Positions 43,982-48,934 of a DNA stretch of 64,000 nucleotides are shown in pieces. The notes under the pieces were generated by a model. It saw nothing but the letters and a program-made list of their open reading frames with translations. It was not told the DNA's origin and searched no databases. The stretch comes from Pseudoclavibacter sp. RFBB5 (GTDB lineage Bacteria > Actinomycetota > Actinomycetes > Actinomycetales > Microbacteriaceae), in assembly GCF_002931555.1 (NCBI RefSeq), contig NZ_PSTZ01000007.1, forward strand, positions 62,001 through 126,000, given 5' to 3'. Both the position numbers and the translations under genes were made by a program. Numbering within the stretch: the first letter of the stretch is position 1; each line of letters opens with the position of its first letter.

Positions 43982-44617
43982 TCAGCCAGCCAGCGGTTCG
44001 ATCTTCGTGCCCGTCTCGCTCGCCTTGCCGAACTTCGGGGACGCGCCAACGAACGTGCAGCCGCGGAACGTGGTGGCCGCATTGAACTTCGCGCCGGTGA
44101 AGCTGCAGTCGATGAAGCGCGTGTTGGTGAACTCCGCCCCCGACAGCTCCGCGCCGTCGAAGCTGCAGTTCGAGAAGACGGTTCCTGGCACAGCGCGGAG
44201 GCGTCGCAGCTTCGAGTCGGCGAACGAGCAGTTCGACACCTCGGGTCCGATGGACGCCTGCGGGATGTTCGCCCCCGTGAAGGTGCAGGCCCGCAGAGCA
44301 CCCTCGAGTCGTGCGTGCGCCGCGACCTTCGCGTGCTCGAAGCGGACGTGCGTGAGCGTGCTGTCCCGGATGGTGAGGCCGCCCGTGAAACCGCTCGCGT
44401 CGACCTCGGAGACCTCGAGGTGGGTAATGCTCACGCCGAGGCTGCCGGCCTGCAGCCCTCGGAGGTCGGTCACCGAGGATGCCGGATCGTGCCAGCTGGG
44501 CGTGATGCGATGCGGCCCTGGAACCACCCCGGAGAGCCGCGCGAGCTGGGTCCGCAGCGACGAGAGCTCCGAGGAGGTCCAGCGGTCGCGCAGGGTCTTG
44601 CTGTCGGCGGCACTCAT
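43982..44617 (-). CDS. Pentapeptide-repeat-type protein
   Basis: A 211-residue protein. From residue 65 onward the sequence follows a five-residue periodicity of the form A(D/N)(L/F)xx, for example CTFTGANIPQASI, CSFADSKLRR, CSFDGAELSGAEFTNTRF and CSFTGAKF. Such repeats form a right-handed quadrilateral beta-helix. Some members mimic DNA and protect gyrase (Qnr, MfpA); others are effectors or scaffolds. Cys residues at the start of several coils are notable. The start at 44617 is chosen because TACGCT lies 7 bases upstream. It diverges from the hemerythrin gene with a 53-base gap. Confidence 0.8.
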   Translation of the reverse strand: MSAADSKTLRDRWTSSELSSLRTQLARLSGVVPGPHRITPSWHDPASSVTDLRGLQAGSLGVSITHLEVSEVDASGFTGGLTIRDSTLTHVRFEHAKVAAHARLEGALRACTFTGANIPQASIGPEVSNCSFADSKLRRLRAVPGTVFSNCSFDGAELSGAEFTNTRFIDCSFTGAKFNAATTFRGCTFVGASPKFGKASETGTKIEPLAG

Positions 44618-44624
44618 GCCGTCG

Positions 44625-44630
44625 AGCGTA
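44625..44630 (-). promoter_or_regulatory. -10 element of the pentapeptide-repeat gene (leaderless)
   Basis: TACGCT on the reverse strand ends 7 bases before the ATG at 44617. Confidence 0.45.
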
Positions 44631-44670
44631 CTTGCCACGCGATGACTATCTTGGTGAGCGAGGCGATCAG

Positions 44671-45141
44671 ATGAGTGCACAGGAGAAGGACCGGCTGGCC
44701 GCGTGGAGCAGCGAGCTGAGGGCCGTCCACGCGCGGCTGCGCAAGGCCCTGGCCGTCACGCGTGAGGCAGTGAAGCGCGGAGACCCGGCTGAGCCCGCCA
44801 CCCGCGACCTGCTGCTGTACTGCCACGGCTTCTGCACCGCGCTCGACGGTCACCATCGGGGCGAGGACCGCGAGCTGTTCCCCGCGATCGCTGCAGCGCA
44901 TCCCGAGCTGCGCGACACGCTCGCCCGCCTGCAGCAGGACCACTCGATGATCGGCCACCTCATCTCCGGGCTGCAGGCGTCCGTGGATGCGGGGGAGTCG
45001 CCGAGCGAGCTGGACCGGCACCTGGAGGGCATCGCGGCGATCATGGAGTCGCACTTCCGCTACGAGGAGCGCCAGCTGCTCGGGGTGCTGGAGACGCTGG
45101 CTCTCGACGCAGACCCGGCGGCAGTGCTCGGACCCCTGTAG
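44671..45141 (+). CDS. Hemerythrin domain protein
   Basis: A 156-residue four-helix protein. Likely iron ligands are in CHGFCTALDGHHRGEDRELFP (His-x4... HHxxED), QDHSMIGHLI and SHFRYEERQLL, the H-HxxxE-HxxxD pattern of bacterial hemerythrin-like proteins. These bind oxygen or nitric oxide at a di-iron centre. The ATG was chosen at 44671, with GAGCGAGG upstream and TATCTT at 44647 as a possible -10. It is divergent from the pentapeptide-repeat gene. Confidence 0.85.
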   Translation: MSAQEKDRLAAWSSELRAVHARLRKALAVTREAVKRGDPAEPATRDLLLYCHGFCTALDGHHRGEDRELFPAIAAAHPELRDTLARLQQDHSMIGHLISGLQASVDAGESPSELDRHLEGIAAIMESHFRYEERQLLGVLETLALDADPAAVLGPL

Positions 45142-45216: not shown

Positions 45217-47103
45217 CTACGCGCGGTGCGAGGTCCAGGCAGCCCAGAGTTCGCGGTACGGTCCCTCGATCTCGAGCAGCTCGTCGTGCGTTCCATCTTC
45301 GACGACCCGGCCGTGCTCCATGACGAGCACCCGCTCGGCGCTGCTCGCCTGCGACAGGTGGTGGGCGATGGTCACGACCGTCCTCCCGGCGAGCGCCCGC
45401 CCCGCGGCGGCCTCCAGGTCGCGAGCGTCGGCGGTGTCGGCATCCGCCGTCGCCTCGTCGAGGATCACGATCGGCGCCCGCGTCACGAGCGCACGCGCGA
45501 GGGCTAGGCGGTGCGCATCCGTTGCGCTCACCTCTGCGTTGCCCTCGCCGATCATCGTGTCGAGTCCGTCGGTGAAGGTGTGCCGCCAGCGGGGGCCCGC
45601 CACCGACTCGAGCGCATCCCGCAGCTCGTCGTCGCTCGCCGACTCCCTCGCGATGAGCAGGTTGTGGCGGAGGGTGCCGGAGAAGACGTGCACGTCCTGG
45701 CTCACCATGACGATGCGACTCGCGCGTTCGAGCTCGCTCATCTCTGCCGGATCGAGGCCACCGACGTCAACGTGCCCATCGCGCACCTCGAGGAGGCCCA
45801 TGAGCACGCGGGCGAGCGTGCTCTTGCCGGCGCCGGACGAACCGACCACGGCAACCCGCTGGCCGGCGGGGATGCGCAGCTCGTCGATCCAGAGCACGAC
45901 CGGGCGCCCGGGGTAGGCGGCCTCCACGGACTCGAGGGCGATCTCGGGGGCCGGCGGTTCGCCGGCGGCGGCGCTGGCGATCGCCGCGCCCGCGTTCGCG
46001 AGGCTCTCCCCGAGGGCAACGCGCACACGCGGCTGCTCGTCCGGTGGGACCGGCGCCAGCTGGATGACACCCGCGACGCGAGCGAGCGAGGCGCCAGCCG
46101 ACTGCAGGTCGTCGACGAGCATGAGCAGCGAGATGAAGGGGCCGAACAAGGCCTGGAAGAGCAGCGCCGCCGTCGTGACCTCGCCGATCGTCGCGGCACC
46201 GGTGAACGCGAGCCACGCCCCGACCAGGAGCACGGAGGTCAGGCCCACCGCCTCCGCCATGTTCATGCGGAACCCGAACCGGCTCTGCACGATGCGGGTG
46301 CGCAGCGCCCACCTGAGCACGTTCCAGGAGCGGGTGCGGATGCGCTCCGTGACAGCCCCGCCCCACCCGTAGGCGTGCACGGTCGGGAGGGCCTGGATGG
46401 CGGACACCATCTCGCGGGACCGCGAGGCGATGGCGACGCGTTCCGCGGCGTAGAGGCGCGGCGCCTTCCGCAGGTAGCGCCAGAGCGCGAACGCGTGCAC
46501 CGGAACGACCGTGAGCATGGCGAGCAGGAACAGCGGGTTCAGCACGGCGAGCCCGACGCCCGTCGCGACGACCGCCAGGCCGGCGGACACGACCGCGGGA
46601 ACGGCGCCCGTCGTGACCTCGCCGACCGTGTCGACGTCGTCGGTTGCCCTCGAGACGAGCTCGCCGTCGGCGACCTCGTCCACCAGCACGGCGGGGAGGG
46701 CGAGCGACGCCGCCACGAAGTCCTCCCGGAGCCGTGCCAGCGCCGTCTCCAGGACCGCGGCGAGCGCCATCGACCCGAGCGCTCCGAGCGCCGCGCTGCC
46801 AGCAACACCGGCGAGCAGCATGAGGGCGACCTCGACGAGGCTCCGGTCGACACCCGTGACGGCGTCGACGAGGCGCCCGAGCCCCGCTGGGACCAGCAGG
46901 GCGGCCGCGGCGGCCGCGCCGAGCAGCACGATCGCGAGCACGAGCATCCACGGGCGCAGCGTCAGGAGGTGCCAGGCGAGGCGCGCGGAGCGCTTCCCCG
47001 TTGCGATGGGGAGCCCTGCTGCGATTGGCCGCTCCGAAACCGTGGACTGATCCGGAACGGTCGGGCGGGCCTCGGCCTGCGAGCCCGGGGTGGTGGCGCT
47101 CAC
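45217..47103 (-). CDS. ABC exporter subunit with intact Walker A but degenerate signature motif
   Basis: A 628-residue half-transporter: six membrane helices (residues 45-330) and a C-terminal ATPase. Walker A GSSGAGKST, Walker B VILDEATADAD and H-loop IAHHLS are canonical, but the ABC signature LSGGQ is replaced by VSATD in EVSATDAHRLALARAL. It is the partner of the upstream protein, whose defects are complementary, so one composite ATP site is expected. The start is GTG at 47103, overlapping the partner's stop (GTGA). The substrate is unknown. Layout resembles CydDC and other heterodimeric exporters; no cytochrome bd genes are nearby. Confidence 0.88.
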   Translation of the reverse strand: MSATTPGSQAEARPTVPDQSTVSERPIAAGLPIATGKRSARLAWHLLTLRPWMLVLAIVLLGAAAAAALLVPAGLGRLVDAVTGVDRSLVEVALMLLAGVAGSAALGALGSMALAAVLETALARLREDFVAASLALPAVLVDEVADGELVSRATDDVDTVGEVTTGAVPAVVSAGLAVVATGVGLAVLNPLFLLAMLTVVPVHAFALWRYLRKAPRLYAAERVAIASRSREMVSAIQALPTVHAYGWGGAVTERIRTRSWNVLRWALRTRIVQSRFGFRMNMAEAVGLTSVLLVGAWLAFTGAATIGEVTTAALLFQALFGPFISLLMLVDDLQSAGASLARVAGVIQLAPVPPDEQPRVRVALGESLANAGAAIASAAAGEPPAPEIALESVEAAYPGRPVVLWIDELRIPAGQRVAVVGSSGAGKSTLARVLMGLLEVRDGHVDVGGLDPAEMSELERASRIVMVSQDVHVFSGTLRHNLLIARESASDDELRDALESVAGPRWRHTFTDGLDTMIGEGNAEVSATDAHRLALARALVTRAPIVILDEATADADTADARDLEAAAGRALAGRTVVTIAHHLSQASSAERVLVMEHGRVVEDGTHDELLEIEGPYRELWAAWTSHRA

Positions 47104-48839
47104 GCGATCGCCTCCGCGTAGTCGGCGTTGCTCGCGAGCAGCTCATCGTGGGTGCCTTCGGCGGCGAGGGCGCCGTCGCGGACCACCAGCACGCGGTGCG
47201 CGCGCACAAGCAGCTGCGGGTTCGAGCACACGACGACCGTGGCCCGGCTCGCGGTGGCGGCGCGCATCCGCTCGCCGATTCGCTGCTCGGTGACGGCGTC
47301 GACGGAACCGGTCGGCTCGTGGAGGACGAGCACGGGAGCTGGTGCCGCGAGGGCCCTCGCGAGGGCGAGGCGCTGGCGTTGGCCGCCGGAGAGGGTTCTG
47401 CCCGCGCCGCCGAGCGGAGTGCGGATGCCATGGGGGAGCTGGTCGAGGACATCCGTGAACGACGCCGCGTCGAGCGCCTCATGCGCCTCATGGAGCGAAC
47501 GGGAGGCTGCGCCGATGCCGACGACGTTGGCCGCGACGGTGCCGGGCAGCGTGTGCGCGGCGTGCGGAGGCGCGGTCACCAGCTCGTGGAGGCTGGCGGC
47601 GTCGACCTCGGCGAGGGGCAGGCCGTCGACGGTGACGGATCCCTGCGTCGGGTGGATGCGACCGCCGAGCAGCTGCACGAGCTCGGCCGCCTCGTGGGCC
47701 TCGGCGACGATGCCGACGGTCTCACCTCGCTCGACGGTGAAGCTCAGGTCGCGCAGGTGCTCGCCGCCGAGCCGGGCGACGGCGAGGGCCGGCTCCGTGC
47801 CCTTCGCGCGGCGATCGTCGACGTGCTGCTCGCCGACCCTCTTCGTGTCGACGAGCGCCTCCCTCGCGTACGGGGCCTCCAGCAGCGAGAGCACGCGCTT
47901 CGCGGAGGCCCCCGCGCGGGCCCACACCGCTCCGACGTTGACGGCGAGCGCTTCCATCGGGCCCATGACGACCTGCACGACACCCACGACGGTGATCAGC
48001 TGGCCGACCGTGATGGCGCCCTGGAACGCGAGGGCCGCGGCGATGACGCCGATCGCGACGACGAAGATGCCGGTCGCCGTGCTCGAGACGGCGACGAACC
48101 ACGCCTCTGCGCGGCGCGTCGCGATCGCCGCGACGCGGGCGCGTTCGCTGGCCTCGGCATAGCTGCGCGAGGCGCGCCCCGTGGCTCCGAGGGCGGTGAG
48201 CGTGCGGAAGCCGGCGATGGCATTCGCCGCCAGCGAGGCGGAGTCTGCGGTGAGCCGCTGCTGGTCTTCGGCCCTCGCACGGAGGTGCCGCCCGAAGCGG
48301 TCGAGCAGGAGCAGGAACACGGGGCCGCCGAGGATGACGGCGAGGCCGAGCGGCCAGGCGATGCTGATGAGGACGGCTCCGGCCGCCGCGACCGCCGCCA
48401 GTTCGGCGACCGGGTGCACGAAGAGGAGGCCGCCGAACGCAACTCGCTGCACATCCGAGCCGCCGATGCCGAGCAGCTCGCCGGTGGGCCGCTGTCGGTC
48501 GCCGAAGCCGCGCGGGTCGAGGGAGCGTTCGCTGACGCGCATGCGCAACTCGTGATGGGCGCGCTGGATGCCGTTGACGAGGAAGTACACGCCGGCCCGG
48601 TACGACCAGGCGAGGAGCACGAACACACCGACGAGCACTGCGGCCCAGACCGCGAGCTGCGGGAGGTCGCGGTCGACGATGCCGCGGTCGATGACGAGCC
48701 CGACCACGACCGGCACTGCCACCTCGCACAGCTGGTGCGAGACGAACAGGGTGGTCGCGGGCGCCAGCCAGCGCTTCACGCTGAGCGCGGTCTGCACGAT
48801 GAGACGACGCGGCCCCGTCGTCTGAGCTGCTGCTGGCAC
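47100..48839 (-). CDS. ABC exporter subunit with intact signature but no Walker A lysine
   Basis: A 579-residue half-transporter with six membrane helices and an ATPase domain. The signature LSGGQRQRLALARAL is perfect, but the P-loop reads VGIVAEAHEAAELVQ without GxxGxGK(S/T), Walker B has His for the Asp (LVLHEPTG), and the H-loop His is absent (VVVCSNPQ). It should not bind ATP productively at its own P-loop, but can complete the site of its partner. GTG at 48839 is the start: AGGAGG lies seven bases upstream, while the further upstream TTG has no site. First gene of a two-gene operon. Confidence 0.88.
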   Translation of the reverse strand: MPAAAQTTGPRRLIVQTALSVKRWLAPATTLFVSHQLCEVAVPVVVGLVIDRGIVDRDLPQLAVWAAVLVGVFVLLAWSYRAGVYFLVNGIQRAHHELRMRVSERSLDPRGFGDRQRPTGELLGIGGSDVQRVAFGGLLFVHPVAELAAVAAAGAVLISIAWPLGLAVILGGPVFLLLLDRFGRHLRARAEDQQRLTADSASLAANAIAGFRTLTALGATGRASRSYAEASERARVAAIATRRAEAWFVAVSSTATGIFVVAIGVIAAALAFQGAITVGQLITVVGVVQVVMGPMEALAVNVGAVWARAGASAKRVLSLLEAPYAREALVDTKRVGEQHVDDRRAKGTEPALAVARLGGEHLRDLSFTVERGETVGIVAEAHEAAELVQLLGGRIHPTQGSVTVDGLPLAEVDAASLHELVTAPPHAAHTLPGTVAANVVGIGAASRSLHEAHEALDAASFTDVLDQLPHGIRTPLGGAGRTLSGGQRQRLALARALAAPAPVLVLHEPTGSVDAVTEQRIGERMRAATASRATVVVCSNPQLLVRAHRVLVVRDGALAAEGTHDELLASNADYAEAIA

Positions 48840-48934
48840 GCGGCGGCCTCCTGGCGGCTTCGGTCGGGGCGCTCCGGATGCGCGAAGCCGCAACGAGCGA
48901 CGCCCGTGGTGAGGGCGACCTTCCTATTTTTCCC

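Follow-up and report, generated by a model that had tools for sequence, protein, structure and literature searches.

The gene pair described here raises the question of whether an ABC exporter can run on a single ATP site. The pair is located in a 64,000-nucleotide stretch of the Pseudoclavibacter sp. RFBB5 genome (hereinafter the window, the coordinates of which are used below) and consists of two half-transporters encoded on the minus strand, A followed by B:

47100..48839, minus strand: subunit A, ABC exporter half-transporter (TMD and NBD), identified from the ORF and matches to PF00664 and PF00005
45217..47103, minus strand: subunit B, ABC exporter half-transporter (TMD and NBD), 628 aa, identified from the ORF and matches to PF00664 and PF00005
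47100..47103, minus strand: GTGA overlap between the stop codon of A and the start codon of B, read from the sequence

In each of these proteins, the ABC_membrane TMD (PF00664) is followed by the ABC_tran NBD (PF00005), with both domains scoring above the cut-off, and this domain order, together with full-length matches to TM287/288, MsbA and TmrAB, identifies A and B as ABCB-like (type IV fold) half-transporters. The GTG codon at 48839, from which A would be 579 aa long, is the likelier start of this subunit because it is preceded by AGGAGG; the longest reading (47100-48893) begins with the first TTG, at 48893, and yields 597 aa. Translational coupling of A and B via the GTGA overlap would be expected. 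Directly downstream of the pair, there are genes for a hemerythrin-like protein (44632-45141) and a pentapeptide-repeat protein (43982-44680), and the neighbors also include an acyl-CoA synthetase, which was read from the sequence. A gene of approximately the hemerythrin size is found at the same position in two congeners (L021 and L022), the likeness being one of size and position only. No match was detected in plasmid records.

The NBDs of the two subunits have lost complementary sets of motifs. The assignments below come from motif alignment, combined with the AlphaFold model in the case of the Walker A position of A:

47682..47720, minus strand: A, Walker A position, TVGIVAEAHEAAE, no glycine loop and no Lys
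47562..47564, minus strand: A, Q-loop position, His (APPH) for Gln
47379..47393, minus strand: A, LSGGQ signature intact (LSGGQRQR)
47316..47333, minus strand: A, Walker B, VLVLHE, His for Asp
47298..47300, minus strand: A, D-loop Asp intact
47223..47225, minus strand: A, H-loop position, Ser (CSNP) for His
45913..45915, minus strand: B, A-loop Tyr intact
45817..45843, minus strand: B, Walker A intact (GSSGAGKST)
45697..45699, minus strand: B, Q-loop Gln intact (VSQD)
45517..45531, minus strand: B, signature position, VSATD for LSGGQ
45454..45471, minus strand: B, Walker B intact (IVILDE, within ILDEAT)
45361..45363, minus strand: B, H-loop His intact (IAHH)

A sequence-only reading of this locus had described one subunit with intact Walker A, Walker B and H-loop but VSATD in place of LSGGQ, and another that has LSGGQ but lacks the P-loop Lys and the H-loop His and contains a His in Walker B; both descriptions were confirmed, for B and A, respectively. 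The A-loop aromatic residue and the Q-loop Gln, which that reading did not mention, are also missing from A. The P-loop position of A is occupied by VAEAHEAAE. A scan of 91 homologous A proteins detected no GxxxxGK[ST] motif at any position, and none is seen on inspection of the window A.

The same pattern extends across a large family of pairs in Actinomycetota. The first rounds of the search yielded 91 loci with A, to which 15 were added from weaker matches and from additional classes within the phylum. Apart from a canonical fused exporter (L242), those of the weaker matches that are complete follow the pattern. For 88 A/B pairs, 13 motif positions were scored in each composite site, where site 1 is formed by the Walker side of A and the signature of B, and site 2 by the Walker side of B and the signature of A. 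All 13 positions of site 2 are kept in 88/88 pairs and only 1-4 of the 13 positions of site 1, so that the earlier proposal of exactly one complete composite site holds not only for the window pair but for the whole family, and the companion proposal, that the second site has lost both halves, agrees with the alignment, in which the Walker side of A and the signature of B are both gone. Among the 92 A subunits of the first rounds (the window one included), the Walker A Lys, the Q-loop Gln and the H-loop His are never found (0 each), and SGGQ and the D-loop Asp are invariant (92/92 each). Conversely, the A-loop aromatic residue, Walker A, the Q-loop, the Walker B Asp and Glu, and the H-loop His are each present in 88/88 B subunits, and the second Gly of the signature is retained in a single one of the 88. 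The D-loop Asp is replaced by Gly in 60/88 B subunits of the family; the window B is not among these. Many of the replacements in A are themselves conserved: there is a His at the Q-loop position in 66/92 proteins, a Pro at the second P-loop Gly in 66/92, and an S/T-x-S-P-like motif in place of the H-loop His in many A subunits (e.g., 47214-47230 in the window). The conserved replacements at the H-loop and Q-loop of A suggest that the dead site may have acquired a new structural role.

Matches to the A-subunit profile were detected in 219 of the 395 sampled genomes of the class (E 1e-60 or better), but the true count for the family is lower because a match at ~1e-76 had already proved to be a canonical exporter. 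The A search profile was built from degenerate A subunits and thus favors more of such proteins; the status of B was not selected in this manner. A scan of genome contigs produced 101 relatives, mostly canonical exporters, that could be used as controls; loss of Walker A among these was observed only in family members, a truncated ORF (L169) and another ORF (L221), the latter a G-to-D variant that keeps the Lys. A potential intermediate, L163, with a neighbor containing SAGQ, was rejected because it turned out to be partnered with an ordinary family B. In almost every locus examined, A and B occur as a pair: the two genes are either adjacent or 11 kb apart, the latter in the case of three Streptomyces A genes that lack an adjacent B but have one ~11 kb away on the same strand. 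In one locus (L097, G417:C1:57110-58869), the B gene is split into two frames beside an intact A, due to a genome frameshift or an assembly error. The RFBB5 genome itself encodes a second, diverged one-site A/B pair on contig 19 (L031, G000:C19:63907-67514), beside FecCD permeases and an AraC regulator.

Trivial explanations of this pattern do not hold. A sequencing error or frameshift in the P-loop was ruled out by the presence of the same sequence in three congeners, which possess orthologs 85-90% identical to the window proteins, with the same motif pattern; a P-loop shifted elsewhere in A was ruled out by the scan of the 91 homologous A proteins. Accordingly, chance, sequencing error and shifted motifs are all excluded.

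A phylogenetic tree of 196 proteins separates all A subunits from all B subunits, with each set forming a single group (support 100 in both cases) that splits into the same subgroups, I and II. The same A/B grouping, with either set on one side of a single branch and again with support of 100, is obtained in a tree of the TMDs only, in which the motifs in question are left out. Because all A belong to one clade and all B to another, the complementary loss probably had a single origin and was then inherited jointly from one ancestor; considering that FastTree may join long branches, the single-origin result is strong but not final. The window pair, with its A in the A clade, its B in the B clade and complementary motifs, is a member of this one-site A/B family, within subgroup I. 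Thus, the pattern first perceived as one odd pair is real but is an inherited family trait rather than a local oddity. Subgroup II (L120-L122 and L124-L141; e.g., L122) is represented in several families of the class. No earlier description of the one-site A/B family, or of bacterial exporters without Walker A, was found in the open-access literature.

The AlphaFold models (mean pLDDT 88.9 for A and 87.2 for B) are confident for the NBDs of both subunits, with values of ~94-96 in the blocks of A that span the P-loop position. At this position, the model of A contains a strand (392-396), a two-residue turn (397-398) and a helix (399-409), whereas in the model of B, the same strand and helix are joined by a five-residue loop (422-426). 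Thus, the NBD of A is predicted to be well folded without a P-loop. The best PDB matches include MsbA, ABCB8, TM287/288, TmrAB and MsRv1273c/72c. IrtAB and YbtPQ also appear among the Foldseek matches of A.

Degenerate sites are common among ABC transporters, and in human proteins, the deviations are concentrated in the signature and the Walker B Glu (PMC7756269). The A/B pairs, with one canonical and one deviating composite site, belong to the general class of degenerate-site heterodimeric exporters, and share with TM287/288, BmrCD, PatAB, TmrAB and MsRv1273c/72c the heterodimeric organization, the ABCB-like fold and a degenerate site that combines the Walker side of one subunit with the signature of the other. 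Walker A in both subunits and ATP at the degenerate site are usual although not strictly defining features of this class, given that Pdr5 departs from this pattern, and in the A/B family, Walker A is absent from 92/92 A subunits. PatAB is described as deviating only at the Walker B Glu, the H-loop and one signature residue (SAGQ) (PMC9541285) and, unlike the predicted A/B pair, as binding ATP in both NBDs; MsRv1273c/72c contains ATP plus ADP-vanadate according to the PDB titles. A further candidate, the thiol/heme exporter CydDC, was rejected: the TIGR02857/TIGR02868 scores are 179.6/217.4 bits for B and 140.5/169.3 bits for A, compared to cut-offs of 435/329.

The closest precedent is Pdr5, in which all main motifs of one site deviate (PMC7756269) and which belongs to the PDR subfamily, referred to as the most extreme case of asymmetry (PMC8421411). 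As in the A/B family, in these ABCG-type drug transporters of fungi and plants, one site is degenerate in Walker A, Walker B, the H-loop and the opposite signature, and the other is canonical. However, Pdr5 is a single, full-length polypeptide with the reversed domain order (NBD-TMD-NBD-TMD) and a different TMD fold, as opposed to two ABCB-like half-transporters with the TMD-NBD order, so that the A/B pairs are not members of the PDR subfamily. Furthermore, the A/B pairs have lost the A-loop, the Q-loop and the whole P-loop and, in most B subunits, the D-loop Asp. By these sequence features, the family goes further than Pdr5 in the erasure of the site. The earlier assertion that the asymmetry is stronger than in known heterodimeric exporters fits the description of PatAB (PMC9541285) but overlooked Pdr5.

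Because the erasure is common to a large actinobacterial family, it is probable that one ATP site powers all of these transporters; we estimate the probability that the pair is an obligate heterodimeric ABCB-like exporter with a single functional ATP site at about 0.75. Under this scheme, ATP would be held by Walker A, Walker B and the A-, Q- and H-loops of B, and clamped by the LSGGQ and D-loop of A. The mirror-image site, having lost contacts from both subunits, would be expected to contain no nucleotide. The NBD of A would then function as a catalytic clamp and a permanent structural contact, and one event of ATP binding and hydrolysis would drive each cycle. With somewhat less confidence, it seems probable that the natural mode of operation of the family involves a single nucleotide per dimer, the second site being a fixed protein contact only, devoid of ATP.

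A challenge to the latter prediction comes from Pdr5 itself, where ATP is resolved at the deviant site notwithstanding the Cys that replaces the P-loop Lys (PMC8421411), along with Glu-to-Asn and His-to-Tyr changes and LNVEQ in place of the signature. Hence loss of binding, which the sequence-only reading expected, does not follow automatically from these substitutions, and the degenerate site of the A/B pairs might permanently bind ATP in a non-canonical manner, with two nucleotides present and one hydrolyzed. This appears unlikely: Pdr5 is described as retaining the D-loop and evidently has a P-loop capable of holding ATP, whereas A also lacks the three P-loop glycines, the A-loop aromatic residue and the Q-loop Gln, the D-loop Asp is a Gly in 60/88 B subunits, and no P-loop is seen in the AlphaFold model of A. 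With the glycine loop, A-loop and Q-loop gone, ATP binding at site 1 is likely lost.

The direction of transport and the substrate have to be considered in the light of the genomic context. Siderophore genes, namely those for NRPS, FecCD permease, binding lipoprotein, siderophore-interacting protein, MbtH and ornithine/lysine monooxygenase, were counted within ~7 kb of the pairs. At least one such gene is present in 42/70 subgroup-I loci vs 0/21 subgroup-II loci (Fisher p 3e-7, a value in which independence is overstated because the loci are related). In the cluster L249/L243/L114, the genes are arranged in the order monooxygenase, FecCD, ABC ATPase, binding protein, B, trimodular NRPS, A and, in L114, an esterase, which we take to be the order expected for the cch (coelichelin) locus of S. 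coelicolor. The NRPS between B and A in this coelichelin-type cluster, one of the three Streptomyces loci with A and B ~11 kb apart, is a trimodular protein of 3648 aa; the A encoded here has the motif pattern of the family, and the B is scored as a family member. By gene order alone, this pair corresponds to CchG/CchI, which are presumed to export coelichelin in Streptomyces coelicolor (PMC12161575).

At the window locus, no siderophore genes (~7 kb scanned) and no NRPS were found beside the pair, which in this respect differs from CchG/CchI; the nearest non-congeneric relatives of the window pair include members of siderophore clusters (e.g., L065 and L089/L091). Elsewhere in the genome, there is an NRPS gene of ~3,500 aa (G000:C12:~217170-227645, L245; also in G001 and G006, L247 and L248), followed by a two-gene ABC system, apparently of the ABC-2 type by sequence. 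The presence of this NRPS tracks that of the window pair (4/4 congeners with the pair, 0/5 without it), but the link is weak because the NRPS is accompanied by an ABC system of its own and the distribution could simply reflect the four genomes forming one clade. Identity of the pair with the SapB exporter RamAB was also considered; nothing useful was found in the literature. For the family as such, export of a siderophore-like compound would be a sensible guess; for the window pair, it is extrapolated from the relatives.

The siderophore context is shared with IrtAB and YbtPQ, which have the same heterodimeric ABCB-like fold, contain two canonical sites and act as importers. The A/B pair could, by analogy, be an exporter-fold importer of a ferric siderophore, as the Foldseek matches of A to these proteins and the separate siderophore-interacting FAD protein encoded near 9 family loci might indicate. 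This appears doubtful given that in the same clusters, uptake is often already provided for by FecCD permeases and binding lipoproteins, and that CchG/CchI, matched by a family pair in gene order, are presumed to export coelichelin. For the window pair, we infer outward transport of a siderophore-like or other small secreted substrate, with no nucleotide at site 1 and one ATP per cycle.

Among the four congeners, dN/dS values are 0.06-0.11 for the TMD and 0.14-0.22 for the NBD of A, and 0.05-0.12 for the TMD and 0.08-0.17 for the NBD of B. The NBD of A is somewhat freer to change, yet clearly under purifying selection and therefore not decaying freely. That A is non-functional and decaying, with B forming a homodimer or employing another partner, is hardly credible: the higher dN/dS of the NBD compared to the TMD of A would fit such decay, but the values for A are far below 1, all 92 A subunits retain LSGGQ and the D-loop Asp, both sites of a B homodimer would lack a signature, and A and B stay paired, directly or at a distance of 11 kb, in nearly all loci examined.

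In the one-site A/B family, the erasure of the site has persisted while Actinomycetota diversified. Members of the family can be recognized by an A subunit with no P-loop, an intact SGGQ and usually S/T-x-SP at the H-loop, combined with a B subunit with an intact P-loop and no SGGQ. The findings also suggest a one-site organization for presumed siderophore exporters, for example CchG/CchI. The functional advantages of a degenerate site have been called unclear in one review (PMC7756269). This family offers bacterial proteins that are probably easier to express than Pdr5 and in which the site is more completely erased, so that a direct test becomes possible of whether an ABC exporter cycles with one ATP. 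If the proposed mechanism is true, two bound ATPs would not be needed for the exporter cycle.
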